Shown: positions 1 to 45,395 of the stretch, piece after piece
How the letters are laid out: every line of letters begins with the position of its first letter
How positions within the stretch are numbered: the stretch's first letter is position 1
Origin: [Candidatus Thermochlorobacteriaceae] bacterium GBChlB
Lineage (GTDB): Bacteria > Bacteroidota > Chlorobiia > Chlorobiales > Thermochlorobacteraceae
Direction: 5' to 3'
Assembly (NCBI GenBank): GCA_000724175.1
Contig: JPGV01000024.1
Span: 30,516-90,515 of the forward strand
Length of the DNA stretch: 60,000 nucleotides
Notes under the pieces: generated by a model
Told to the model about the DNA's origin: nothing
Seen by the model: only the letters and a program-made list of their open reading frames with translations
Database searches by the model: none
Made by a program: the position numbers and the translations under genes

Positions 1-2650
1 CGGTCTTAACCGATTCAATCCCAAAACACGGACATTCACACATTTTTTATCCGACCCAAGCAATGCAGAAAGTTTAAGCGATAACGATGTATTTTCACTG
101 TGCGGCGGCGCAGCAAACGAACTTTGGGTTGGCACTATTGGAGGCGGGTTGAACCGCTTTAACCTCCAAACACAAGCTTTTACGCGCTATGTTCGCACAA
201 CCAGCGCGACATCTCTGAGCAGCAACGCTGTCATTGCGCTGATGCGCGACGCTGCTGGCGCCGTTTGGATAGGCACAGATAACGGCGTAAACCGATTGGA
301 CTTAGGAAAAGAAAAGTTTGATAAGTTCACTGCGTTTGGTGCAGTTGCCTCGCTCAACATTCAGAGCATCTATGAAGACACACGCGGCGTGCTTTGGCTT
401 GGCACAGACGGAAACGGACTCTTTAGCCTTGACCGAAAAAATCGCACCTTCAAAAATTACATGAGCAAACCCGACGGCGTTAGCCTGCAAGACAACCGAA
501 TTTTTTCTATTTATGAAGACCGCGCTGGCGTCTTGTGGATTGGCGCTTTTGGCGGGCTTTTGCATCAGTTCGACCGCAGCAGCGGTAAGTTCAAAACTTA
601 CTCGCTCAAACAAGCCTTCGCCTTCGGGGCAACTCTTGAAAACAATGCCGTCAGTGCTATCTACGAAGACCGAAGCGGCACGCTCTGGATTGCGACCGAA
701 GGCAGCGGACTGTTCAGCCTTGACGCGGCGCGCCGACAAGTGAGGTCGTTTTCAGTCATCGCTAACGATACGACAAGCATTAGCAGCAATGTGGTTCAGT
801 GCATTGTCGCGGACCGCGCGGGCGCAATTTGGATTGGAACGGCGCAGGGCATTTGTCGCTACGATGCCACAACTGATAAATTTGCTCGATACTTTTCTAG
901 CATCATCGCGGGCAGTGGATTGCTAAATAACGATATACTCTCGCTCTACGGCGACGCATCAGGCAACCTCTGGATTGGCACATTGGGCGGCGGACTCAGT
1001 CGCTTTACACCTCAGACAGGCACCGTCGTTACCTTCTCGGAAGCCGACGGACTCATCAACGACGTCGTCTATGGCATTCTGGAAGACGCGCGCGGCAATC
1101 TTTGGTGCAGCACGAACCGCGGACTGAGCAAATTCAACCCTCAAACAAAATCGTTCCGAAATTACGACATGCGCGATGGGTTGCAGGGAAATCAGTTCAA
1201 TCAAGGTGCGTTCTTCAAGTCGCCGAGCGGCGAACTGTTTTTCGGCGGCGTCTCCGGACTCAATTCGTTTTTTCCTGAAAAGGTGCAAGACCATTCGTTT
1301 GAGCCGCCCGTGTCTATCGTCGATTTCAAAATTTTTGATAGACCTGTCGACGATGCTCGGCTCGATTCTGTTATTCAACTCTCCTATGCGCAAAACTTTT
1401 TTTCCTTCGAGTTCGTCGGTCTTAACTTTCGCTTTCCTGAAAAAAATCGATATGCCTACAAATTGGACGGGTTTGATAATGACTGGGTGGATTGCGGCAC
1501 GCGGCGTTACGCCGCCTACACGAACCTCAATCCAGGCGAGTATGTCTTTCGAGTGAAAGCGTCGAACAACGACGGCGTTTGGAACGAGCGCGGCGCAACG
1601 GTTCGGCTGATTATCACACCGCCGTTCTGGCAAACAGCGTGGTTTAGAGTGTTCGCAGTCGTCGGCACGATTGGTGTCAGCGTGTTTCTGTATCGGAAGC
1701 GCATCAGCGATATTGAGTTGCGCAATCAACGCCTTGAGTCAGAAGTGGCACAGCGCACAGCCGAGCTACAACAAAAGAACCAACTTGTGGAAGTGCAGCG
1801 CGATGAATTGAAACATGCGCTCGACGAACTCAAACACACCCAAGCACAACTCGTTCAATCTGAAAAGATGGCGTCGTTGGGACAACTCACCGCCGGCATC
1901 GCACACGAAATCAACAACCCGATTAACTTTGTCTCTGCCAGCATCAAGCCGCTTCGGCGGAACATCTCGTCGGTCTTATCTATCACTCAGAAATATGATG
2001 ACCTTCTTTCGGCGTCGGAACTTGCCCATGTCGCCGAAGAGATTCGGCGATACAAAAACGACTTAGAGTTCGAGGTGGTCGTCGAGGAACTTCAAACGAT
2101 TTTGCGAAACATTGAGAACGGCGCGAAACGCACCACTGAAATCGTCCGAAGCCTGCGCAACTTCAGCCGACTCGATGAAGATGTCTTGAAATGTATGAAC
2201 ATTCACGACGGCATTGATTCAACTTTGGAACTTTTGACGAACCAACTCAAAAACCGCGTTGAGGTTGTTAAAAACTACGGCGATATTCCCGAAGTGGAAT
2301 GTTATCCAGGTCAACTCAATCAGGTCTTTATGAATGTGTTGGCAAACGCCGCTCAAGCTATTGAAGGCAATGGCAGCATTTTTATCACGACAGCCCGCGT
2401 CCAAGATACCGTCAGGCTGTCGTTCAAAGACACCGGCAAAGGCATCAGTCCCGACGTGAAAATGAAGATTTTCGACCCGTTCTTTACAACGAAGAAAATC
2501 GGTGAAGGCACCGGATTGGGACTGTCCATTACTTTCGGGATTATTAAAAAACATCACGGTACAGTAGAAGCCCGTAGCGAGGGCGTTGATAAAGGCGCGG
2601 AGTTCATCATTACGCTGCCGATTGTGCAGCCAATGAAAACCGCGGACTGA
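1..2650 (+). CDS. Sensor histidine kinase with two-component-regulator propeller (5' end outside window)
   Basis: The frame is open back to base 2, so the true start lies upstream. The visible part begins with repeated propeller blades, each ending in a LWIGT-type motif (LWVGTIGGGL, VWIGTDNG, LWLGTDGNGL, LWIGAFGG, LWIATEGSG, IWIGTAQG, LWIGTLGGGL). A Y_Y_Y domain follows (YAYKLDGFDNDW, YTNLNPGEYVFRVKASNNDG). One membrane helix near base 1640 leads into a coiled coil. The H-box is GQLTAGIAHEINNPINFV and the ATPase domain carries DTGKGISPD and GTGLGLSI. This is the periplasmic-propeller kinase architecture common in Bacteroidota, but it lacks the fused receiver and AraC domains of classical hybrid systems, so output must pass to a separate protein. 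The receiver-GGDEF gene 59 bp downstream is the obvious candidate partner (inference). Confidence 0.93.
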   Translation, partial: GLNRFNPKTRTFTHFLSDPSNAESLSDNDVFSLCGGAANELWVGTIGGGLNRFNLQTQAFTRYVRTTSATSLSSNAVIALMRDAAGAVWIGTDNGVNRLDLGKEKFDKFTAFGAVASLNIQSIYEDTRGVLWLGTDGNGLFSLDRKNRTFKNYMSKPDGVSLQDNRIFSIYEDRAGVLWIGAFGGLLHQFDRSSGKFKTYSLKQAFAFGATLENNAVSAIYEDRSGTLWIATEGSGLFSLDAARRQVRSFSVIANDTTSISSNVVQCIVADRAGAIWIGTAQGICRYDATTDKFARYFSSIIAGSGLLNNDILSLYGDASGNLWIGTLGGGLSRFTPQTGTVVTFSEADGLINDVVYGILEDARGNLWCSTNRGLSKFNPQTKSFRNYDMRDGLQGNQFNQGAFFKSPSGELFFGGVSGLNSFFPEKVQDHSFEPPVSIVDFKIFDRPVDDARLDSVIQLSYAQNFFSFEFVGLNFRFPEKNRYAYKLDGFDNDWVDCGTRRYAAYTNLNPGEYVFRVKASNNDGVWNERGATVRLIITPPFWQTAWFRVFAVVGTIGVSVFLYRKRISDIELRNQRLESEVAQRTAELQQKNQLVEVQRDELKHALDELKHTQAQLVQSEKMASLGQLTAGIAHEINNPINFVSASIKPLRRNISSVLSITQKYDDLLSASELAHVAEEIRRYKNDLEFEVVVEELQTILRNIENGAKRTTEIVRSLRNFSRLDEDVLKCMNIHDGIDSTLELLTNQLKNRVEVVKNYGDIPEVECYPGQLNQVFMNVLANAAQAIEGNGSIFITTARVQDTVRLSFKDTGKGISPDVKMKIFDPFFTTKKIGEGTGLGLSITFGIIKKHHGTVEARSEGVDKGAEFIITLPIVQPMKTAD

Positions 2651-2709
2651 ACAGCGCTTTTTGTGGCAACCGCTTTATCGCCGTATCTTATTGGTTCATC
2701 TGAAAAACT

Positions 2710-3807
2710 ATGCCGACGACGCAAAATTCAAAGCCTACGATTCTCTACATCGACGACGAACAGGACAATTTGGACGTCTTTAAATCCACGTTTCGACCTT
2801 ACTACAACATTTACACTGCGCTCGACGCTGTCTCTGGCAGGGAACTTCTCAAAAATGACACGTTAGGCATTGACCTCATTGTCTCTGACCAACGCATGCC
2901 GATTATGACCGGCATTGACTTCTTTGCCTCGATTGTTTCTGACTATCCCGACATTATGCGGATTTTGCTGACAGCCTATACCGATGTTAACGCCGCGATT
3001 GACTCCATCAACCGAGCGAAAGTGTATCGTTATATCGTTAAGCCGTGGGAAGAAGAAGAACTCAAAACAGCGATTGACCAAGCGTTGGAGTTTCAACACT
3101 TGAATCGCAAGAATAAAGAACTGCTCCAGCAGCTCGCGGAATACAACAAGACGTTGGAACAAACAGTCGCCGAGCGAACCGAAGAGTTGCGACTTGCCAA
3201 TGAACTGCTGCGAAAAATCAATGACGAAAAGGAACTGATGATTGAGCAGTTGAAAGCGACAAATGAAGAGAAGTCGCGCCTGCTTATTCAAACGCGCGAG
3301 CAGGCGATTCAACTTGAAAACTTGGCGCGGCAAGACGCCCTGACGAAATTGGCAAATCGCCGGCACCTCGAGATTTCGCTCAATTACGAATTTGAACGCG
3401 CCAAACGTCACAACCGTCTGCTGACCATTGCGCTCTTGGACATCGATCATTTCAAGCAGGTCAATGATATGTTCTCCCATCAAATTGGCGACGATGTGCT
3501 GCGGCAGTTGGGTCAAATTTTGCCCTCCTGTGTCAGAGCCAGCGACTTGGTGGCACGCTATGGCGGCGAAGAATTCGCGCTGGTTTTTTCCGACACGGGA
3601 TTGGACGAGGCAAGGAATGTCTGTGAGCACATTCGCCAGACAATTGAAACTCATACATGGAGCGAGTTGCATCCCGACCTAAAACTCACGTGCAGCATCG
3701 GGCTAAGCACAGACACATCGGTCTCGAACTATGAAAAAATGCTTTCGCTCGCCGACGCTAAACTCTACGAAGCCAAACGCTCAGGCAGGAACCGCGTCGC
3801 TGTCTGA
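2710..3807 (+). CDS. Response regulator with GGDEF output (diguanylate cyclase)
   Basis: This 365-residue protein has an N-terminal receiver with acidic pocket DDE near residue 15, phosphoacceptor D60 (LIVSDQRMP) and conserved K111 in RYIVKPWEE, resembling RpfG-type receivers. A long coiled coil spans about residues 125-205. The C-terminal GGDEF domain has active-site GGEEF at 285-289, and an RxxD inhibitory site (RASD, 276-279) lies exactly five residues before it. It should make cyclic di-GMP when phosphorylated and be subject to product inhibition. It sits just downstream of a propeller kinase on the same strand, which suggests a cognate pair. Its stop is only 11 bp from the stop of the convergent phosphohexomutase gene, with no terminator visible between. 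Confidence 0.94.
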   Translation: MPTTQNSKPTILYIDDEQDNLDVFKSTFRPYYNIYTALDAVSGRELLKNDTLGIDLIVSDQRMPIMTGIDFFASIVSDYPDIMRILLTAYTDVNAAIDSINRAKVYRYIVKPWEEEELKTAIDQALEFQHLNRKNKELLQQLAEYNKTLEQTVAERTEELRLANELLRKINDEKELMIEQLKATNEEKSRLLIQTREQAIQLENLARQDALTKLANRRHLEISLNYEFERAKRHNRLLTIALLDIDHFKQVNDMFSHQIGDDVLRQLGQILPSCVRASDLVARYGGEEFALVFSDTGLDEARNVCEHIRQTIETHTWSELHPDLKLTCSIGLSTDTSVSNYEKMLSLADAKLYEAKRSGRNRVAV

Positions 3808-34335: not shown

Positions 34336-36600
34336 TCATCGACGAATCACCGCGATTTTTCCAAGCGCACTTTCGCGTCCGTCTTCGCTAATCGCCACAG
34401 CGATGTAAATGCCCGACGCCACATCGTTTCCATTTTTATCTTTGCCGTCCCACTCAGCGATGCTGCCGCCTGTCGCAGGCAGTTCGCGCACCAGCGCACC
34501 AGACACGGTTACGATTCTCACAAACGCATTGCGCGTTAAGCCTTCAATGGTGAGCCGTGTGGTCGAGGGCGCTCGATACGGATTTGGAAAAATTTTCAGC
34601 GTGCCGAAAGTCTCTCTTGGCTCAACGGCGTTGGTCGTCAGCGATGAAAGCCCCCTATCTGTTCCGAAATACATCACGCCCGTCCGTCGGTCATAGGCAA
34701 CGGAGCGCACATTGTTCGAGAGAAGCGGCGAGTTGTCAGCGGTGTATCGTTCTAAAATTCTTGTGCCGTCGGCGTTCATCACCCAAACGCCGTTTTGAGA
34801 GCCGAACCATTTTCGGTTGAGCGCGTCGATGGCGAGCGACGAGAGAAATTCATTGCGTAGGTCAAAGACGTTTGTGGCATTTGGAATGCGCTGCTGCAAT
34901 ACGCTGCCACCGTCGAAGACATACGCCGCACCTCTATCGGTAGCAAGCCAAATCGCGCCGTCTGCATCGACTTGAATATCGTTCACTCGATTGTTGGGCA
35001 GCGCGCCGAACCCTGACCGTTCATCGAGTAAAATCCATCGGTCGTCTTGAATGTTCTCTGGCGTGAGGTTATCATCGAAGACGACGACGCCGCGTCCGCT
35101 TCCATCGTTCTCGCCTGTAATCGCAATCCACTTTCGTCCGCTTGCGTCGAGAGCAATTTTGGAGGCTGAGACACCTCGTGGGAACTCGCGTCCGTCGCCG
35201 AAGCCCGTCGTGCCGTATTTTCGAATTTGACCGTTCGGCAAAAATTCATAAATCGGGTTAAGCGCGGTCAGCAAATTTGCAATCCAAATCGAGCCGGTCT
35301 CACTTATGGCCATTGACGGAAGCACGACGAAGTTTTCCGCTGTGCGAATGCCGACAAAGTCGGAGTTGGAGCGATTATAGACGCGCACGGCGTCAGTCTC
35401 GTCAAATTCCAGAAGCCCGCTTCCCCACGTTGAGACGAATGTTTTTCCATTGCGCGTAACCACCGCAGAGAACTGATTAGCGGGCGCGGTGTTCGGCGAG
35501 TTGATGTTTGTAAAATTCCGCCACTGTCCGTTGCTCAATCGGTAGAATCCTGCGGCGCCGTTGCTCGTTACAGACGAGCTTCCCCAAACGCGGCTTTGCG
35601 CGTCGATTACGACTACTTCAAATCGATTCGATAGCGGCGAGTTCGGCGCAAAACTCGCCAGCGCTGTTCCGTTGAACTCGATGAGCGATTGCCGTCTGTC
35701 CGAGATAAATGCGCCGCTTTGGTCGTCAATAGCGACGCTCGATGCTTGCGACAATGCTCCCGAGATGCGACGCGCTTCGCCTGTCGCTCCCTGTAAAATC
35801 AAGGCGTCAGAGGTTAGAACGGCGAGCGTTGCGCTGTTTGCCGACAGCGAGATGACGGCAGCTCCAATGTCTTGACGCGGCTGAAGCGTGGTTCCGATAA
35901 GCGAGAACACACCGCGCTCTGTGCCGACGACCACCTCTCGTTGAAACTCCGCCAGCGATGTTGCACGCCCTTGCGCAGTTATCGCCGTCCATTCTGTCGG
36001 TGCGACTAAGTTTCTCGATGTTAGACTCGCGGTTGCCACGCCTTGCACCGTTGCCGCCACAAGGCGCGTTCCCGATAAGAGAACGGCGTTCACCCGCGTT
36101 CCGCTTGGCAGCGCGCCCAGCCGCGTGTAGCTTTCTCGAAACTCGCGGCGCGACGGCACAAGCAGCGAAATTCCAAAGTCAGAGGCAACGAATACCGAAT
36201 CGGACTGAATCGAAAAATCTCGAATGGTTCGACTTGGAAATTGCGTTACTCGCGCAAGGTCGAGGTAGTTTGTGAAGGTCTCGTTTTCCGTATCCAAAAC
36301 GCTCACTGCGCCGCTCTCGTATCCAATCCACAGTTGGTTTCGTAGCCGATCGAGTTTCAGTGCCGTCACGCGCGTCTCAACCAGTCCTTCTGTATTTGTA
36401 AATGTTCGCGCTTGGCGCGTCGCCCGATTGAATCGATACAAGCCACCTTCTGTTCCAACCCAAACGATTTGATTTCGCTCAGCGGCGACTGACGTGGCAG
36501 TTTGTAATGATGTAAAACTTTTCCAAGTTCCGATGCCTTGCGCGAACATCGGCAGCGAGACTATGCACAGCAGACACGCAAGCGTCATGCGATAGAGCAT
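34336..36600 (-). CDS. PorZ-like secreted propeller protein with type IX sorting-type C-terminus
   Basis: This 754-residue protein has a signal peptide (LACLLCIVSLPMFAQG) and then GTWKSFTSLQTATSVAAERNQIVWVGTEGGLYRFN. Two-component-propeller blades continue to about residue 660, with no membrane helix, kinase or DNA-binding domain. The C-terminus is an Ig-like FlgD/CTD fold (LKIFPNPYRAP, ITVSG-like strand, EWDGKDKNGNDVASGIYIAV), as in proteins sorted by the type IX system. Length, start and layout match PorZ, the surface component that delivers A-LPS to the sortase. The match is by architecture; another propeller protein with a sorting domain is possible. Confidence 0.75.
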   Translation of the reverse strand: MLYRMTLACLLCIVSLPMFAQGIGTWKSFTSLQTATSVAAERNQIVWVGTEGGLYRFNRATRQARTFTNTEGLVETRVTALKLDRLRNQLWIGYESGAVSVLDTENETFTNYLDLARVTQFPSRTIRDFSIQSDSVFVASDFGISLLVPSRREFRESYTRLGALPSGTRVNAVLLSGTRLVAATVQGVATASLTSRNLVAPTEWTAITAQGRATSLAEFQREVVVGTERGVFSLIGTTLQPRQDIGAAVISLSANSATLAVLTSDALILQGATGEARRISGALSQASSVAIDDQSGAFISDRRQSLIEFNGTALASFAPNSPLSNRFEVVVIDAQSRVWGSSSVTSNGAAGFYRLSNGQWRNFTNINSPNTAPANQFSAVVTRNGKTFVSTWGSGLLEFDETDAVRVYNRSNSDFVGIRTAENFVVLPSMAISETGSIWIANLLTALNPIYEFLPNGQIRKYGTTGFGDGREFPRGVSASKIALDASGRKWIAITGENDGSGRGVVVFDDNLTPENIQDDRWILLDERSGFGALPNNRVNDIQVDADGAIWLATDRGAAYVFDGGSVLQQRIPNATNVFDLRNEFLSSLAIDALNRKWFGSQNGVWVMNADGTRILERYTADNSPLLSNNVRSVAYDRRTGVMYFGTDRGLSSLTTNAVEPRETFGTLKIFPNPYRAPSTTRLTIEGLTRNAFVRIVTVSGALVRELPATGGSIAEWDGKDKNGNDVASGIYIAVAISEDGRESALGKIAVIRR

Positions 36601-38152: not shown

Positions 38153-40204
38153 TTAGTTTAGCCCAAAGCGATACGATGCTTTCAGCACAAACTCTCGAGA
38201 GGGCGCGGGTAAGGGCGCAGAAAAATTATTGTAAGGTTGAATGAACACGTAGTTCGATCCAAATAAGTCATAAACGCCCGCGCCAATATCGAGTCCGATG
38301 GGCGATTTGTAAAGCAAAAATACGTTCGCCAGAACCAGCGGCTGAAATTTTATCACTTGTGGGTTGCCATCGGAGTCAACTTCGTTTCCGTTTACGCCAT
38401 TGCGCTCGCTTAAATAGGTTAGCGACGGACTAATGGTCAGTCCTTCCGTAACTTTGAAACTGCTGTTGAGCGCGATTTTATGTGTGGCAAATCCCAGCAA
38501 GACATCGGGGTTACTCGGCACCGTGTAGGAAGCCACCAAATTTTTTCCTGCCGCTGAATAAAATGAGTAGCTCAAATTCACAAATCCCCACCGTTCTTTC
38601 AAGCGATACTCGACCTCGAGACCGCGCGTGCCAGTGCGGTCAAAGTTCCGATAGCCATCAGGGTTCTCTACGTCGTCGTCTGTTGAGGAAAAATATACAA
38701 TTGGCTGGTCGATTGTTATGTCAAACACATTGAGCGCAATCGACATTGTCTTCGTGATTTCATATCCAACCTCCGCCTCGAAGACGGTTGTAAATTCAGG
38801 CTTAATGCCGCTTGTCGTGTCGTTGCCCGAGATGATTATTCCACTACGAATATTCTCAAATGATGGGGCGCGGAAGGCGCGGCTTGCCAAAAACTTGATA
38901 TGCAGCTGGTCAATCACCCGCGTTAGACCGATGCGCGGCACAAACGCCGACCCAAATGCGCTTTGATTATCGAAGCGCGCACCAATAGTAAGGTTGGCAA
39001 TCGGCAGCGCAAACACGCCTTGTGCAAACCCAGCGATGTTGGTATAGCTAATGCTCCGTTGGTCTCGACTGACGCCGAAAAAATTTTCTTGTGGGTCAGC
39101 TGAGCCAACTGTTGCTGCGTCGTTAAAACACTCCGCGCCGAACAGCACGTTGATTTCCTTCGTAATATCCCAGAGGGCCGTTACGTTTGCCGTGATGCGT
39201 TCAGTGATTTTGTTGCCCGGGTTCGCGCCCTCAAATGTCTCAACGACGTCCCAAGGCAGTTGCCGCCGATAGGTTAGGCGCGGCGTTACAATTAATTTGC
39301 CGCCGGCGGCAATGTCATATTTCACATCAGCGATGTAGGTGCTGAAATTTTGCGGTACAGGTCTCTCGGTAATTGCGCCATACCCGTCCTGCGTAGTGGT
39401 TGAGAAACGGTCGGCAATAAACCGCACATCTAAGTTTTGGTATGACAAGCCAAAATTAAAATGTATCGGGTCGAGGAATGAGGCATTGGACATGTCAAAT
39501 GTATTTCCAGCGAAGTCCATATAGGTGCGGTCGCTGCGATTACCTTGTCCAATAAAACCGATCGCTGTTATGTTGAGGTCGCCGAATTTTTTACCGAAAG
39601 CCACGCTGAGGTTTCTGCGCCCAAATGTGCGCTGCATTTGTCCGTATTGTCCTGCAACCGTCATGCCAGAGATCTCGTCCGCATTTTTCGTGATGACGTT
39701 CATGACAGCCAGCGCAGCTTGACCGCCGTAGATTGCCGAGCCGGGACCGCGCACAATTTCAATTTTCTTGATGTGTTCAATCGGGAAATTGTTTCCGAAC
39801 TGTAAGGTGCCATAGAGATTTTCATTGAAATCTTGTCCGTCGATAAGCATTAAAATTTTGCCCTCGTGTCCCCAATTGCCGCGAATGCCCAGCCCTACCA
39901 CGCCAACCACATCCAGCCCGAATTCAAAGCCGGGCACCAATCGTAGCACATCAATTAATTCACGTGCGCCACTGTTTTTGATTTCGTCTTCGCTGATAAC
40001 GGTAACAATACCCGGCGTTTCGCGAGTGGTGAGGCTTTTTTTCGTTGCAACACTAATTGTTTGAATGTTCAAGAGTTCCTCGAGTGAGAGTTCCTCGAGC
40101 ACAAACTTCGTCGTGTCCTTTGTCTGCGCCGTCGCACTTTTAGCGACGCACAGTATTACAAGAGCCAGAATAGACAGAAAAACACATCGTAGTAGGTGAT
40201 TCAT
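38153..40204 (-). CDS. TonB-dependent receptor
   Basis: ATG 40204 gives a signal peptide (MNHLLRCVFLSILALVIL..ATAQ). The plug domain reads SVATKKSLTTRETPGIVTVISEDEI, then GARELIDVLRLVPGFEFG, LMLIDGQDFNENLYG, KIEIVRGPGSAIYGGQAALAVMNVITK, followed by a 22-strand-type barrel ending FVLKASYRFGLN (aromatic near the end). The EELSLEELLNIQTISVATK start is the pattern of receptors often found with YfiR-like proteins and signalling enzymes. The ligand is unknown. It lies 105 bp downstream of a TonB-C/YfiR fusion gene on the same strand, likely one operon. Confidence 0.93.
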   Translation of the reverse strand: MNHLLRCVFLSILALVILCVAKSATAQTKDTTKFVLEELSLEELLNIQTISVATKKSLTTRETPGIVTVISEDEIKNSGARELIDVLRLVPGFEFGLDVVGVVGLGIRGNWGHEGKILMLIDGQDFNENLYGTLQFGNNFPIEHIKKIEIVRGPGSAIYGGQAALAVMNVITKNADEISGMTVAGQYGQMQRTFGRRNLSVAFGKKFGDLNITAIGFIGQGNRSDRTYMDFAGNTFDMSNASFLDPIHFNFGLSYQNLDVRFIADRFSTTTQDGYGAITERPVPQNFSTYIADVKYDIAAGGKLIVTPRLTYRRQLPWDVVETFEGANPGNKITERITANVTALWDITKEINVLFGAECFNDAATVGSADPQENFFGVSRDQRSISYTNIAGFAQGVFALPIANLTIGARFDNQSAFGSAFVPRIGLTRVIDQLHIKFLASRAFRAPSFENIRSGIIISGNDTTSGIKPEFTTVFEAEVGYEITKTMSIALNVFDITIDQPIVYFSSTDDDVENPDGYRNFDRTGTRGLEVEYRLKERWGFVNLSYSFYSAAGKNLVASYTVPSNPDVLLGFATHKIALNSSFKVTEGLTISPSLTYLSERNGVNGNEVDSDGNPQVIKFQPLVLANVFLLYKSPIGLDIGAGVYDLFGSNYVFIQPYNNFSAPLPAPSREFVLKASYRFGLN

Positions 40205-40309
40205 TGTCGTTGCTGTTTTGGTTTTGGGCTTAAACTGAACTTGCTTAGCACGCAGCATACCGCTGGCTAACGATATGAGGCAATACCACGGGCTGCGGAG
40301 AACCCTTGA

Positions 40310-41614
40310 TTACTCGACTACGGTTGCCAGTTTCATCAAAGCATCGTTAAACGATTTTTGCTCGCGCTCCAAATTTTTCCGATTGACGATGATTTTAGAT
40401 TTGCCTTGTTCATCGGTGCCGATAGCAACCGAGACCAATCCCTGTTCAACGAATCGCTCGGTCGAGGTTACCGTCAGCACACCCGCTTTCAGCGCAATTG
40501 CTTGTATGGACTTTGCATTCACGCTTGGCAATAGATACAGCACATCAAATGCTTTGGCTGTTTCAGCTAATTTTGACTCTGGCACAAATTCGGCCTCTGT
40601 TTTTGCGGTCTGAAATTGCTTGACTAGTTCATTGCCGTCAATGTCTGCATCGGCTGCATAGACCACACCGATTTTCACTTTCGGTTTTTGAGCAAGCGAC
40701 TTTTCGTAGCCAAAAATTTTAGTAAACATTGCGGCTTGAAGCGGCAACAAACTTCGTTCAGTGCGGAACGTAACCAGAATGGTTACCACACCTGCAATGG
40801 GTTTTCCGCCTACGGTTGCCGGCTTGAATCGTAAGTCTTCGCTCAAGACTCTAAAGACCTCGTCGTTCAATATCGCGTTTGCTGTTTTGACCAGAGTTAC
40901 TTTGCTTGCAAATCCATTGCGATCCACGAACACTTTTGCGACGACATCGCCCTCGATTTTTTGCTCACGTGCAATGGAGGGATAAATGAGTTTCTCGTAT
41001 AGCGCATTCATACCGCCGATAATTTCAGGCTTGGTTTCAAGTGTTAGTTTCTCGCTTTTTTCAGCGTCTTCTGCATCTTGGAGCGCTTCCTTCAGGCGGC
41101 TATTGGCAGCAAGCGATGTATCGGTAGAGGCAATAATTGCCGGCTTTTCTGGCACAGGCGCAGGTTTTGGCTGTGGCAGTTTTGTTTCCGCAGGCTTCGC
41201 TGCGGGTTCAGCTTTGGCAAGGTCAGCGGGTTTCTTTTCAGCAGGTTCAGGGCGTCTGTCTTTCGGCTCTGGTTTAGCACGTTTTGCTTCGGCAAGGTCG
41301 GCTGGCGCAGCAGATGCCAAACGCACATCAAGCCGCTTCATAATACTTGCCTCGAATGTGACGGAACTTGACACTTGCGGCAAACCCGATTTGCTGACTT
41401 TGAGGGTGTAACTCCCCAACGGCACCGAAATAAACGCATAATATCCGCTCGCGTTACTTACTGCTGCCTGCGTTAAATCTGAATTGCTTAGTGAGACAAC
41501 CGCTGCACGCAGTGGATTTCCTTGGTCGTCTGTAATCAAACCGAGCAGCCTTCCCTGCGCAACCGCAAGCGTTGAAACCAACATCAACACGCTTACAAAG
41601 ACGGCTTTTTTCAT
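40310..41614 (-). CDS. Periplasmic fusion: carboxypeptidase-regulatory-like + TonB C-terminal + YfiR-like domain
   Basis: This 434-residue protein begins with a signal peptide (KKAVFVSVLMLVSTLAVAQG). A CarboxypepD_reg-like domain follows at about 21-100 (LLGLITDDQGNPLRAAVVSL; SNASGYYAFISVPLGSYTL), then a Pro/Lys/Glu/Ala-rich linker at about 103-170. A TonB C-terminal domain at about 205-290 contains YPSIAREQKIEGDVVAKVFVD and LRFKPATVGGKPIAG. From about 295 it reads AAMFTKIFGYEKSL, KVKIGVVYAADADIDGNELV, DVLYLLPSV and VLTVTSTERFVEQGLVSVAIG, which fits YfiR/DUF4154. YfiR proteins restrain membrane diguanylate cyclases in Pseudomonas. There is no N-terminal membrane anchor, so this is not a classical TonB. 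Confidence 0.82.
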   Translation of the reverse strand: MKKAVFVSVLMLVSTLAVAQGRLLGLITDDQGNPLRAAVVSLSNSDLTQAAVSNASGYYAFISVPLGSYTLKVSKSGLPQVSSSVTFEASIMKRLDVRLASAAPADLAEAKRAKPEPKDRRPEPAEKKPADLAKAEPAAKPAETKLPQPKPAPVPEKPAIIASTDTSLAANSRLKEALQDAEDAEKSEKLTLETKPEIIGGMNALYEKLIYPSIAREQKIEGDVVAKVFVDRNGFASKVTLVKTANAILNDEVFRVLSEDLRFKPATVGGKPIAGVVTILVTFRTERSLLPLQAAMFTKIFGYEKSLAQKPKVKIGVVYAADADIDGNELVKQFQTAKTEAEFVPESKLAETAKAFDVLYLLPSVNAKSIQAIALKAGVLTVTSTERFVEQGLVSVAIGTDEQGKSKIIVNRKNLEREQKSFNDALMKLATVVE

Positions 41615-41672: not shown

Positions 41673-42707
41673 TTACTTGTTGTTAAGATTTGACAAAGTT
41701 GATTGGTCAATTCTCAGCATGGTCTCGACCGCAGCGATGATGCGCTCATCGTCAATATCGGTCATACAGCGAAAGTGTTTTTCGGGACAACGGTCGCGCC
41801 CAATGTGCGAGCAAGGTCGGCAGGTCAAGTTCTTTACTTCTAAAATACTATGCGGCGAGCGATACGGTAGAAATCCAAACTCGGCGACCGACGAGCCAAA
41901 GAGCGCGACAATCGGTTTTTGAAACGCGGCGGCGATGTGCATCAACCCTGTATCGTTGCAGAGCATTGCATCGGCGCGTTCAATCAAGGCTGCTGATTCC
42001 AAGAGCGAACATGTGCCTGCAAAATTCTTCACCTGCTCTTTTTGCGCGATGCTCCTGTAAATTTCTTCACCGATGGTCGAGTCCTCTTTTCCGCCCAAGA
42101 GCCAAATTTCCAACGCATATTTTTCAAGCAGCCGATTCAGAACGCTCGAAAAACGCTCTGCTGGAAATCGCTTCGTAAAATGCCGCGCGCCGTAAGCGAC
42201 TGCTAACACAGACGGTTTCGGGCGATTGCTATTTTGCTCAACCTGTTTTGCCGCAAACGCCTTTGAGGCGTCGTCTAAAAAAATCTCGCAGCCTTCGTTG
42301 TCGTCTGCCAATCCAAGCGGCGCGACCGCATTGATGTATCGCTCCGCCGTTGATGTATAGCCCGAATACAGATTCACTTTGAAATTGACGAGTAAAAACT
42401 TCTTCCAGTTTTCTTTCCTGTAGCGAAGTGTTGTGCGAGCGTAAGGTCGAAGTTGCGCCGAGTGTCTGTTGTGCTGCAAATCTATACAGATGTCGTAGAA
42501 CGATGCTTTATTGAATGTCTCTGGCGTAAATACCTTCGTCAGGTTTGGATTATAAAGAACGAGCGGCGCGAAAGCGGGCTTCGTTAAAAAGTGAATTTCG
42601 GCGTTAGGGAATTTTGCGCGAAGCCGACGCACGAGTGGGGTCGTTAGCACTACATCGCCGATGGACGACAACCGAATCACGAGAAGTCTATTGTGGCTCA
42701 TCGGCAA
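41673..42707 (-). CDS. Glycosyltransferase family 9 (heptosyltransferase-type)
   Basis: This 344-residue protein has the GT9 start RLLVIRLSSIGDVVLTTPLVRRLRAKFPNAEIHFLTK. Its C-terminal sugar-nucleotide region includes LGGKEDSTIGEEI, FAGTCSLLESAALIERADAMLCNDTGLMHIAAA and PIVALFGSS. A cysteine cluster (LTCRPCSHIGRDRCPEKHFRCM) near the end is a known feature of this subgroup. It probably adds heptose or a related sugar to the LPS core. MSHNRLLV at 42701 is an equally good start. It is followed after 58 bp by the divergent-domain fusion gene on the same strand. Confidence 0.9.
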   Translation of the reverse strand: MPMSHNRLLVIRLSSIGDVVLTTPLVRRLRAKFPNAEIHFLTKPAFAPLVLYNPNLTKVFTPETFNKASFYDICIDLQHNRHSAQLRPYARTTLRYRKENWKKFLLVNFKVNLYSGYTSTAERYINAVAPLGLADDNEGCEIFLDDASKAFAAKQVEQNSNRPKPSVLAVAYGARHFTKRFPAERFSSVLNRLLEKYALEIWLLGGKEDSTIGEEIYRSIAQKEQVKNFAGTCSLLESAALIERADAMLCNDTGLMHIAAAFQKPIVALFGSSVAEFGFLPYRSPHSILEVKNLTCRPCSHIGRDRCPEKHFRCMTDIDDERIIAAVETMLRIDQSTLSNLNNK

Positions 42708-42716
42708 CGCAGGACG

Positions 42717-45335
42717 TTAGCACACGAGTTTTGCATTTTCTGCATCGTGTTCGCAATGATCGATGCTGTTTTCGGGGCGAACCTCGACGGGTTCGGCTTT
42801 GACAATCAAGAGCGTGATGTCGTCGTGCTGTTCTGCGTTTCCAACGAAGTCAATCAGTGCGTTCTCGATTCGGCTAAGCATTTCGGAAGCCGGCTGATGT
42901 TTATCGCGCTCAATCAGTTCTAACAGCCGTTCCATTCCAAACTCATCGCCGTTGCTGTTCTTCGCTTCGGTTACACCGTCGGAGAAGAAAATGAACACAT
43001 CGCCTTCACGGTAGCAGAGTTTTTCTTCGGCGAGCGCATTGGCAAACCGTTCTCCGGCGTCCAGTCCAATGCCCATACCTGATGGTTTTACAATGTGCCA
43101 GCGGTCATCGGCGGTGGAATACCACAGCATGGGCAGGTGTCCGGCTCTGGCTACCACGAGCGTTTTTTGTTCGGTGTCGAATTGTCCGCAGAACATTGTA
43201 ACAAACGACCGTCGCATATCGCGCGAGAACAAGACGGCGTTTGCTTGTTCCAAGAGTGCTTTGGGCGAGAGCGTGCCGCCGTAGTTGAGTGTGCGCATAA
43301 TGCCTTGCACGCGCGCCATATACATTGCTGCCGAAATCCCTTTTCCGGCGACGTCGCCCACGAGGACGGTCAAGTGTTGAGCCAGCGACGGCTTGGCATG
43401 GCGCGACGATTCTAAAATCACATCGTAGTAGTCGCCGCCAACTTCGCCGGCTGCAATGTATGACCCAGCGACCACCAGCCCTTTCATCGCAGGAATTTCT
43501 TGCGGCAAAATTTCCTGTTGAACTTTTCGAGCAAATTCCAACTCGCGTTTCAGTCGTCGCTTTTCACTTTCTTCTTTGTTCAACCGCGCGTTCTCAAATG
43601 CGACTGCCGCTTGGCGCGCGACCGACTCAATGAACTTTACATCGTCCTCTTTGTAAGTTTCTTCGGAACGCTTTTCGGCAAGCAGAATGATTCCGATGGA
43701 CTTGTCTTTAATCACCAACGGCGCAACGAGTTGAACTCCTGCTTCTTGGATTCTCGACATTTGATTTCTTGCATCGGGTGGCACTTCATTCGGCAAGAGC
43801 AAATCGACGATAGGGACAGGCAGAAGCAGTTCAGAGCCACGACGATACAGTTCCTCGGCATCGTCCGCCGTCAGCACCGCGCAACTGCCTTTGGCGGTTT
43901 CCAGACGGTATCCATTACGCACTGCCAGACAAATCGCTGCGCCTTTGAGTTGCATCAGTTCAATGATTTCATTGGCGATGCTTTCGGCGAGTTCGCTGAC
44001 CGTAATTTTTTCCGCCAAGACTTCTGAGATTTCCGAGAGCGCGTTTCGATAATTGTATTTGCGCCGATGGAAGTAGGCGTCCAAGAGGTCACGCACTTTT
44101 TCGGACAGGAGCTTGAACGCCCACATCACGCCAATGCCGAACAGAATGAAGATAAACCGCTCGCCAATTTTGTTCGCCGCTGGATTTTCCGACCCTGTAA
44201 AAATCTGAATGCTCATCGTTGTAAATCGCACACCAACGGGCGTTGTCCATTCAAGCCGTGTGAGCCAAGAAACCACATTGATAAACGCTACGATAAGAAA
44301 AAACATAATGGCGGCATTGGTGACATGGTAGCTCAAACTGCGTTTGACAATGCGGGTAATGCCGAAGAACCGATACTTCGTGATGCTGTAAAAATATGCT
44401 GCTGGCACAACCGCCGCGAGCAGCAAGACATAGAGGGCGACTTTTCCGAACTCGTTGTAAAGCCACCACCCTATGCCGTTTGAGACACCAAACACGATGA
44501 GCGCATAGAAAATCCATCGTTGCGCTTTTTGAATATCGGGCTCTTGCAGCCATTTGATGCCGTAGAGTATTCCGATAGCGATGCTGAGATATGCGCAGTT
44601 CCACATCGCCAGTGGCGTTCTCGTTACATCAAACGCCAGCAATCCGACACATGTGGCTGCACCGACGATGTAAAACGCTCTCACGAGGGCGAGTTGCTTC
44701 TTGAAGTTCTTGCTTTGTTTTGGGAAGTAAAGCGAGGCGTGGACGGCAAAAGGCAGCCCAAAGAACATCGACATCCACCACAAGCCGCCAATAACGCCAG
44801 AGCCACCGGCGCCCGTTATCGCAAACGTGGGCGCAAGTGCAACGAGTGACGCCGCAAGCATTTGTGCACCCGATTGTTCAGGCTTCGATAAGCCGACTGA
44901 GACGCCGACGGCGATGGTTGCCAGCATCACTCCAAGCGAGAGCAATATCGCCCAGTCAATTCCGACGCGGGCGATTAAGACATTGAGCGTTAGTTGGTCG
45001 TTGCCGCGCTGCACAACATAGGTGATGTAGTCGCCCGGCTTGGTTTGCTTTAAAATCGCGTTCGCTTCTTTGGCGTTTTGAAAGGCTTGATTGTTGATGG
45101 AGAGAATCACATCGCCGATTTCCATGCCGGCGCGTTCCGACGCGCCATCGGGGACAATTGAGACGACCTTTACGCCGTCTTTGCTGTCCTGAAAAACATT
45201 CTCATCGGTCGGCGATGTAAAGATGCTCACCACATTGCCGATTTTGGCAACAGCAATGTAGAGCGCAAGGAACAGCAGCACTGCTTTGAAAGCCGTAGGG
45301 TATTTTGAACTTAGGTTCGTCATCGTGGCGTTCAT
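42717..45335 (-). CDS. SpoIIE/RsbU-type protein phosphatase with PDZ, membrane and GAF domains
   Basis: Start taken at ATG 45335 (MNATMTNLSSKYP); ATG 45368 upstream is also possible. The order is: one helix near the N-terminus, a PDZ domain (GAS-type EIGDVILSINNQAF, AILKQTKPGDYITYVVQRG), about eight membrane helices, a GAF domain (GAAICLAVRNGY to AAVAFENARL), and a PP2C-like SpoIIE domain (EFARKVQQEILPQEIP, VAGSYIAAGEVGGDYYDV, VLVGDVAGKGISAAMYMARVQ, FIFFSDGVTEAKN, DDITLLIVKA). Such phosphatases act in partner-switching control of sigma factors through STAS proteins. No STAS or anti-sigma gene is adjacent. Confidence 0.92.
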   Translation of the reverse strand: MNATMTNLSSKYPTAFKAVLLFLALYIAVAKIGNVVSIFTSPTDENVFQDSKDGVKVVSIVPDGASERAGMEIGDVILSINNQAFQNAKEANAILKQTKPGDYITYVVQRGNDQLTLNVLIARVGIDWAILLSLGVMLATIAVGVSVGLSKPEQSGAQMLAASLVALAPTFAITGAGGSGVIGGLWWMSMFFGLPFAVHASLYFPKQSKNFKKQLALVRAFYIVGAATCVGLLAFDVTRTPLAMWNCAYLSIAIGILYGIKWLQEPDIQKAQRWIFYALIVFGVSNGIGWWLYNEFGKVALYVLLLAAVVPAAYFYSITKYRFFGITRIVKRSLSYHVTNAAIMFFLIVAFINVVSWLTRLEWTTPVGVRFTTMSIQIFTGSENPAANKIGERFIFILFGIGVMWAFKLLSEKVRDLLDAYFHRRKYNYRNALSEISEVLAEKITVSELAESIANEIIELMQLKGAAICLAVRNGYRLETAKGSCAVLTADDAEELYRRGSELLLPVPIVDLLLPNEVPPDARNQMSRIQEAGVQLVAPLVIKDKSIGIILLAEKRSEETYKEDDVKFIESVARQAAVAFENARLNKEESEKRRLKRELEFARKVQQEILPQEIPAMKGLVVAGSYIAAGEVGGDYYDVILESSRHAKPSLAQHLTVLVGDVAGKGISAAMYMARVQGIMRTLNYGGTLSPKALLEQANAVLFSRDMRRSFVTMFCGQFDTEQKTLVVARAGHLPMLWYSTADDRWHIVKPSGMGIGLDAGERFANALAEEKLCYREGDVFIFFSDGVTEAKNSNGDEFGMERLLELIERDKHQPASEMLSRIENALIDFVGNAEQHDDITLLIVKAEPVEVRPENSIDHCEHDAENAKLVC
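44971..45014. repeat. 44-bp internal repeat, copy 1 (inside phosphatase gene)
   Basis: This stretch of the phosphatase gene, coding near VVQRGNDQLTLNVLIA just after the PDZ domain, matches 46251-46294 in the same orientation with about four to five mismatches. Confidence 0.8.
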
Positions 45336-45395
45336 TTTCTCCAAATTTCTGGACGCAAAAATACGCATTTACGTGCAAACCGACGGCTCGAAATG

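Follow-up and report, generated by a model that had tools for sequence, protein, structure and literature searches.

The stretch of DNA analysed here, referred to as the window, comprises 60,000 nucleotides of contig JPGV01000024.1 of Candidatus Thermochlorobacteriaceae bacterium GBChlB and carries on its reverse strand, at 40310-41614, an open reading frame of 434 amino acids with an ATG start and zero internal stop codons. The encoded protein begins with a signal peptide assigned from hydropathy (residues 1-20; 41555-41614), followed by a CarboxypepD_reg domain (residues 23-99; 41318-41548; Pfam PF13620, E=1.4e-13), a charged linker whose sequence is rich in Pro, Lys, Glu, and Ala (residues 100-194; 41033-41317), a TonB_C domain (residues 209-284; 40763-40990; PF03544, E=5.8e-11), and a YfiR/DUF4154 domain (residues 292-430; 40325-40741; PF13689, E=7.9e-7). 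All three Pfam domains exceed their cut-offs, the DUF4154 (YfiR/HmsC-like) match scoring 29.7 bits (cut-off 24.9), confirming the three-domain architecture that an earlier note on this DNA had proposed. That note had also claimed that the protein has no membrane anchor, and this agrees with Kyte-Doolittle hydropathy of the whole chain, in which the N-terminal signal (residues 9-27) is the sole hydrophobic stretch and no internal anchor was detected. Judged by its sequence, the fused protein is exported, soluble, and devoid of a membrane anchor.

A gene for a TonB-dependent receptor (TBDR) of 683 amino acids follows on the same strand (38153-40204), with its start codon 105 bp downstream of the stop codon of the fused gene, or 51 bp if an alternative upstream in-frame ATG at 40258 is used. 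Pfam identifies a Plug domain and a barrel only, with no STN domain, and the best NCBIfam match is the TOL_0244 family, partial and below the cut-off. At the TonB-box position, residues 39-55 of the receptor (40040-40090, reverse strand) read LSLEELLNIQTISVATK, a signature of YfiR-linked receptors. Most YfiR-adjacent receptors carry a segment resembling LSLEELLNIxVxTxSK immediately ahead of the plug, and a pattern for it occurs in 30 of 41 of them (6 expected from shuffles) and in 1 of 24 other receptors of the window's own genome (1.9 expected), a contrast that is descriptive, the pattern having been composed after viewing the YfiR-adjacent set. Most YfiR-adjacent receptors also lack the CarboxypepD_reg extension carried by the genome's other receptors. 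The receptor beside the fused gene shares the trait of TBDR-YfiR clusters, combining adjacency with the pre-plug segment. Separately, a TBDR with a YfiR-type pre-plug segment and no YfiR gene near it was observed at L200:7726-9891 (genome G000, contig C19).

The TonB_C and YfiR domains were modelled separately; mixed alignments of separate proteins with the fusion were misaligned. AlphaFold2 models built with relatives reached a pLDDT of 93 for the TonB_C part and 95 for the YfiR part. In Foldseek searches, the TonB_C model matched TonB in its complex with FoxA (6i97_D) with an rmsd of 1.4 Å, and the YfiR model matched the Pseudomonas aeruginosa YfiR chains 4yn7, 4yn9, 4yna, 4zhu, and 5eb1 with TM values of 0.6-0.76. 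Profile searches against PDB sequences agree with both fold assignments, and the C-terminal third can be accepted as YfiR/DUF4154, as had been suggested, on the strength of both the profile match and the fold. P. aeruginosa YfiR has disulfides (PMC4887326), whereas residues 285-434 of the fused protein contain no cysteine.

In P. aeruginosa, YfiR is established as the bridge between a sensor in the outer membrane and an enzyme in the inner membrane (PMC3375315, PMC4887326). In this YfiBNR system, outer-membrane YfiB sequesters YfiR and thereby releases YfiN (PMC4887326). The site at which this YfiR contacts YfiB also accepts vitamin B6 and L-Trp (PMC4887326), and the top Foldseek matches of our YfiR model include two ABC-type binding domains, 3lkv and the Trp-containing 3lft, as well as a Rhodothermus marinus 'substrate-binding protein' (6k1x) that surpasses the YfiR chains by E-value. 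These matches would suit a ligand hand-off, in which the TBDR imports a ligand that the YfiR domain binds in the periplasm before signalling, while TonB_C only holds the protein near the receptor. The name of 6k1x is, however, a mere deposited label, and the TonB C-terminal fold in the same chain, together with the common pre-plug segment, fits protein-protein coupling at least equally well, so that we regard the hand-off as unlikely, though worth keeping in mind.

Pfam found no kinase, GGDEF protein, or other membrane transducer beside the fused gene among the neighbours scanned. Upstream, at 41673-45368, lie a heptosyltransferase gene and a gene for a PDZ-multi-TM-GAF-SpoIIE phosphatase (42717-45368). 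The phosphatase is encoded on the same strand, two genes upstream of the fused gene, and its PDZ domain is probably periplasmic, which would be compatible with a dedicated output of the locus; the two genes form a pair conserved in five relatives that have neither the fused gene nor the receptor, however, which makes that role very improbable and led us to reject both as dedicated partners. The phosphatase is probably a bystander. The GGDEF protein of the window, a REC-GGDEF regulator (2710-3807), was likewise rejected as a partner, as it goes with its own propeller-type histidine kinase directly upstream (pair at 149-3807). At 34336-36600 the window also encodes a protein with a PorZ N-terminal propeller domain (type IX secretion).

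The genome encodes seven CarboxypepD_reg plus TonB_C proteins, the fused one included, all of which seem from their sequences to be exported and unanchored. On contig 36, genes for a CarboxypepD_reg/TonB_C protein, a YfiR protein, and a TBDR follow one another in the same order as in the window, and contig 22 carries TBDR, YfiR, CarboxypepD_reg/TonB_C, histidine kinase, and response regulator genes. The contig-22 arrangement is repeated in another Chlorobiales genome (G009) and, with no recognised TBDR, in a further one (G012). The fused gene thus unites what elsewhere are two distinct genes lying side by side, which suggests that the CarboxypepD_reg/TonB_C and YfiR proteins work together. At the junction, the sequence ...VTFRTERSLLPLQAAMFTKIFGYE stands against QTGDAPTVIQAALFAKIFAYE in the contig-36 YfiR protein, and the YfiR signal peptide has been cleanly lost. 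Since the fused chain lacks this signal peptide and does not simply run through it in frame, a sequencing error is an unlikely origin, and we consider the fusion real and probably functional. YfiR was found in only 3 of 98 genomes of the class, and the fusion in the window's genome alone; scanning genome contigs with the fused protein gave just two weak TonB_C matches.

Some genes of the CarboxypepD_reg/TonB_C type have other surroundings. One in the window's genome adjoins a 1498-aa propeller-GAF histidine kinase (L065:4801-10277), and others, in four genomes and two families, are divergent from large CarboxypepD_reg TBDRs, with no YfiR (L064:6293-10205, L067:9661-13754, L070:4157-8200, and L075:9965-13954). 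Such YfiR-free relatives beside TBDRs, the number of secreted proteins of this type in the genome, and the close match of the TonB_C domain to receptor-bound TonB could all be accommodated if the fused protein were an accessory of transport, acting as an unanchored, TonB-like adaptor to aid or moderate the energy coupling of the receptor with no part in signalling. This explanation seems improbable to us, as it leaves unexplained both the YfiR domain and the recurrent linkage of YfiR and CarboxypepD_reg/TonB_C genes to kinases.

To place the locus in a wider context, YfiR loci of the phylum were compared. Of the 38 loci, 29 have a TBDR no further than two same-strand genes from YfiR, at least 23 have a kinase adjoining or fused to YfiR, and 20 have both a TBDR and a kinase; the loci, drawn from related genomes, are only partly independent of one another, and the kinase counts are lower bounds, two CHASE8-HAMP transducers having been missed by the kinase profile. 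Across these loci, TBDRs make up 30 of the 104 genes near YfiR and 1 of the 160 genes that are four or more genes away. Thirty YfiR-linked transducers were scanned, yielding 27 with HATPase/HisKA domains and three with GGDEF plus EAL; CHASE8, a periplasmic sensor family also found in YfiN, is present in 19 of the 30, and YfiR is part of the same chain in four. On plasmids of Alpha-, Beta-, and Gammaproteobacteria, the order TBDR-YfiR-transducer was found in all seven loci (three with a kinase, four with GGDEF), a sample in which three loci come from one genus, the receptor is in pieces in two, and a transposase lies between receptor and YfiR in one. The split receptors are those of the Pseudoalteromonas plasmid loci L205:1750-4899 and L206:2908-4968, each in two parts, and the transposase, of the IS30 type, is in L205. 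In two genomes, YfiR genes adjoin uvrA (L090:7600-11645 and L095:7535-11403).

The receptor-YfiR arrangement, probably one of signalling, is broadly conserved, and the receptor link is a more general finding than the fusion. The linkage to receptors claimed in the earlier note recurs in relatives, in clusters of the phylum, and on proteobacterial plasmids. Its signalling reading is supported by the linkage with receptors and transducers, but needs amending in that the usual YfiR-linked output in the phylum is a sensor histidine kinase, with GGDEF-EAL proteins taking this place in some Proteobacteria.

Several known systems resemble parts of this arrangement. In FecA/FecR/FecI, a TBDR acts as the sensor and a relay works in the periplasm, and a TBDR and a putative periplasmic relay are also present here, but the receptor has no STN domain, and neither FecR nor a sigma factor was found among the scanned neighbours. 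The TonB energy transducer shares the fold of the C-terminal domain, including its receptor-bound form, but has an N-terminal inner-membrane anchor that the exported, soluble fused protein lacks. With YfiBNR and HmsCDE the locus has in common a YfiR-family periplasmic domain and an apparent chain that starts at the outer membrane, crosses the periplasm, and ends at a membrane transducer. It differs from YfiBNR in having a TBDR in place of the OmpA-like lipoprotein YfiB, no protein of the YfiB type having been found among the neighbours scanned, in the fusion of YfiR to CarboxypepD_reg and TonB_C, in the missing disulfide cysteines, and in having no YfiN-type (CHASE8/PAS-HAMP-GGDEF) enzyme at the fused locus. 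The NCBIfam families TOL_0243 and TOL_0244 of Thalassolituus oleivorans also pair a YfiR-like protein with a TBDR under consecutive locus numbers, and TOL_0244, which is up sevenfold on a long-chain alkane, resembles OmpS, reported as required for alkane detection (PMC6304351). The matches in the window are partial and below the cut-off, however, the T. oleivorans pair has neither TonB_C nor a fusion, and its substrate is not transferable. Malone et al. (2012), in a text that makes no mention of TonB, presented YfiR and YfiN as a modular core whose outputs include kinases and GGDEF-EAL proteins and from which YfiB is frequently lost (PMC3375315). Among the open-licence papers searched, none was found to connect YfiR or DUF4154 to TBDRs.

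On balance, we favour, by a modest degree, a role of the fused protein as the periplasmic middle piece of a receptor-to-membrane signalling relay in which a TBDR replaces YfiB. The outer-membrane TBDR would sense a ligand, the soluble TonB_C domain would contact the pre-plug/TonB-box segment of the receptor, and the YfiR domain would convey the condition of the receptor to a transducer in the inner membrane, in the way that Pseudomonas YfiR acts on YfiN, so that signals would run from the outer to the inner membrane. The transducer would here most likely be a two-TM histidine kinase with a double-receiver regulator, both encoded at another place in the genome; in Chlorobiales, a cluster with the order TBDR-YfiR-CarboxypepD_reg/TonB_C-kinase-response regulator exists. 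Because the genome encodes a separate membrane-anchored TonB (L190), the fused protein need not be a motor, and a function of its TonB_C domain as a sensor is plausible. Counted against the relay are the lack of a kinase at the locus, the presence of the fusion in one genome, the Chlorobiales kinases, in which no CHASE8 domain is recognisable, and the resemblance of YfiR folds to ligand-binding proteins, which leaves room for a ligand-based route.

How outer-membrane receptors inform the cytoplasm by routes other than FecR/sigma is largely an open question, and so is what feeds many of the YfiR systems without YfiB. The TBDR-YfiR linkage suggests the missing outer-membrane input of these systems, and the conserved order of TBDR, YfiR, and transducer proposes an answer that is genetically testable, with the fusion suggesting that TonB_C makes the physical connection to the receptor. 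The modularity of YfiR and its transducers was itself already known (PMC3375315). More tentatively, there may be a widespread class of TBDRs with a distinctive pre-plug segment that signal via YfiR to kinases or c-di-GMP enzymes, where an unanchored TonB_C domain, in this case fused to YfiR, might read the receptor state as a sensor and not as a motor.

Candidate partners in trans of the fused protein are three kinase-regulator pairs of its own genome, on contigs 24, 2, and 9, whose predicted sensor regions resemble that of the contig-22 kinase (32-39% identity in the periplasmic part); none lies beside YfiR. Such a pairing is not specific, because relatives without YfiR hold several copies of this kinase family. 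Members of the family are found in cis with CarboxypepD_reg/TonB_C genes in four genomes, once without YfiR, in G010 (L140, contig C327), where the CarboxypepD_reg/TonB_C gene has as direct neighbours regulators and a kinase from this sensor family.
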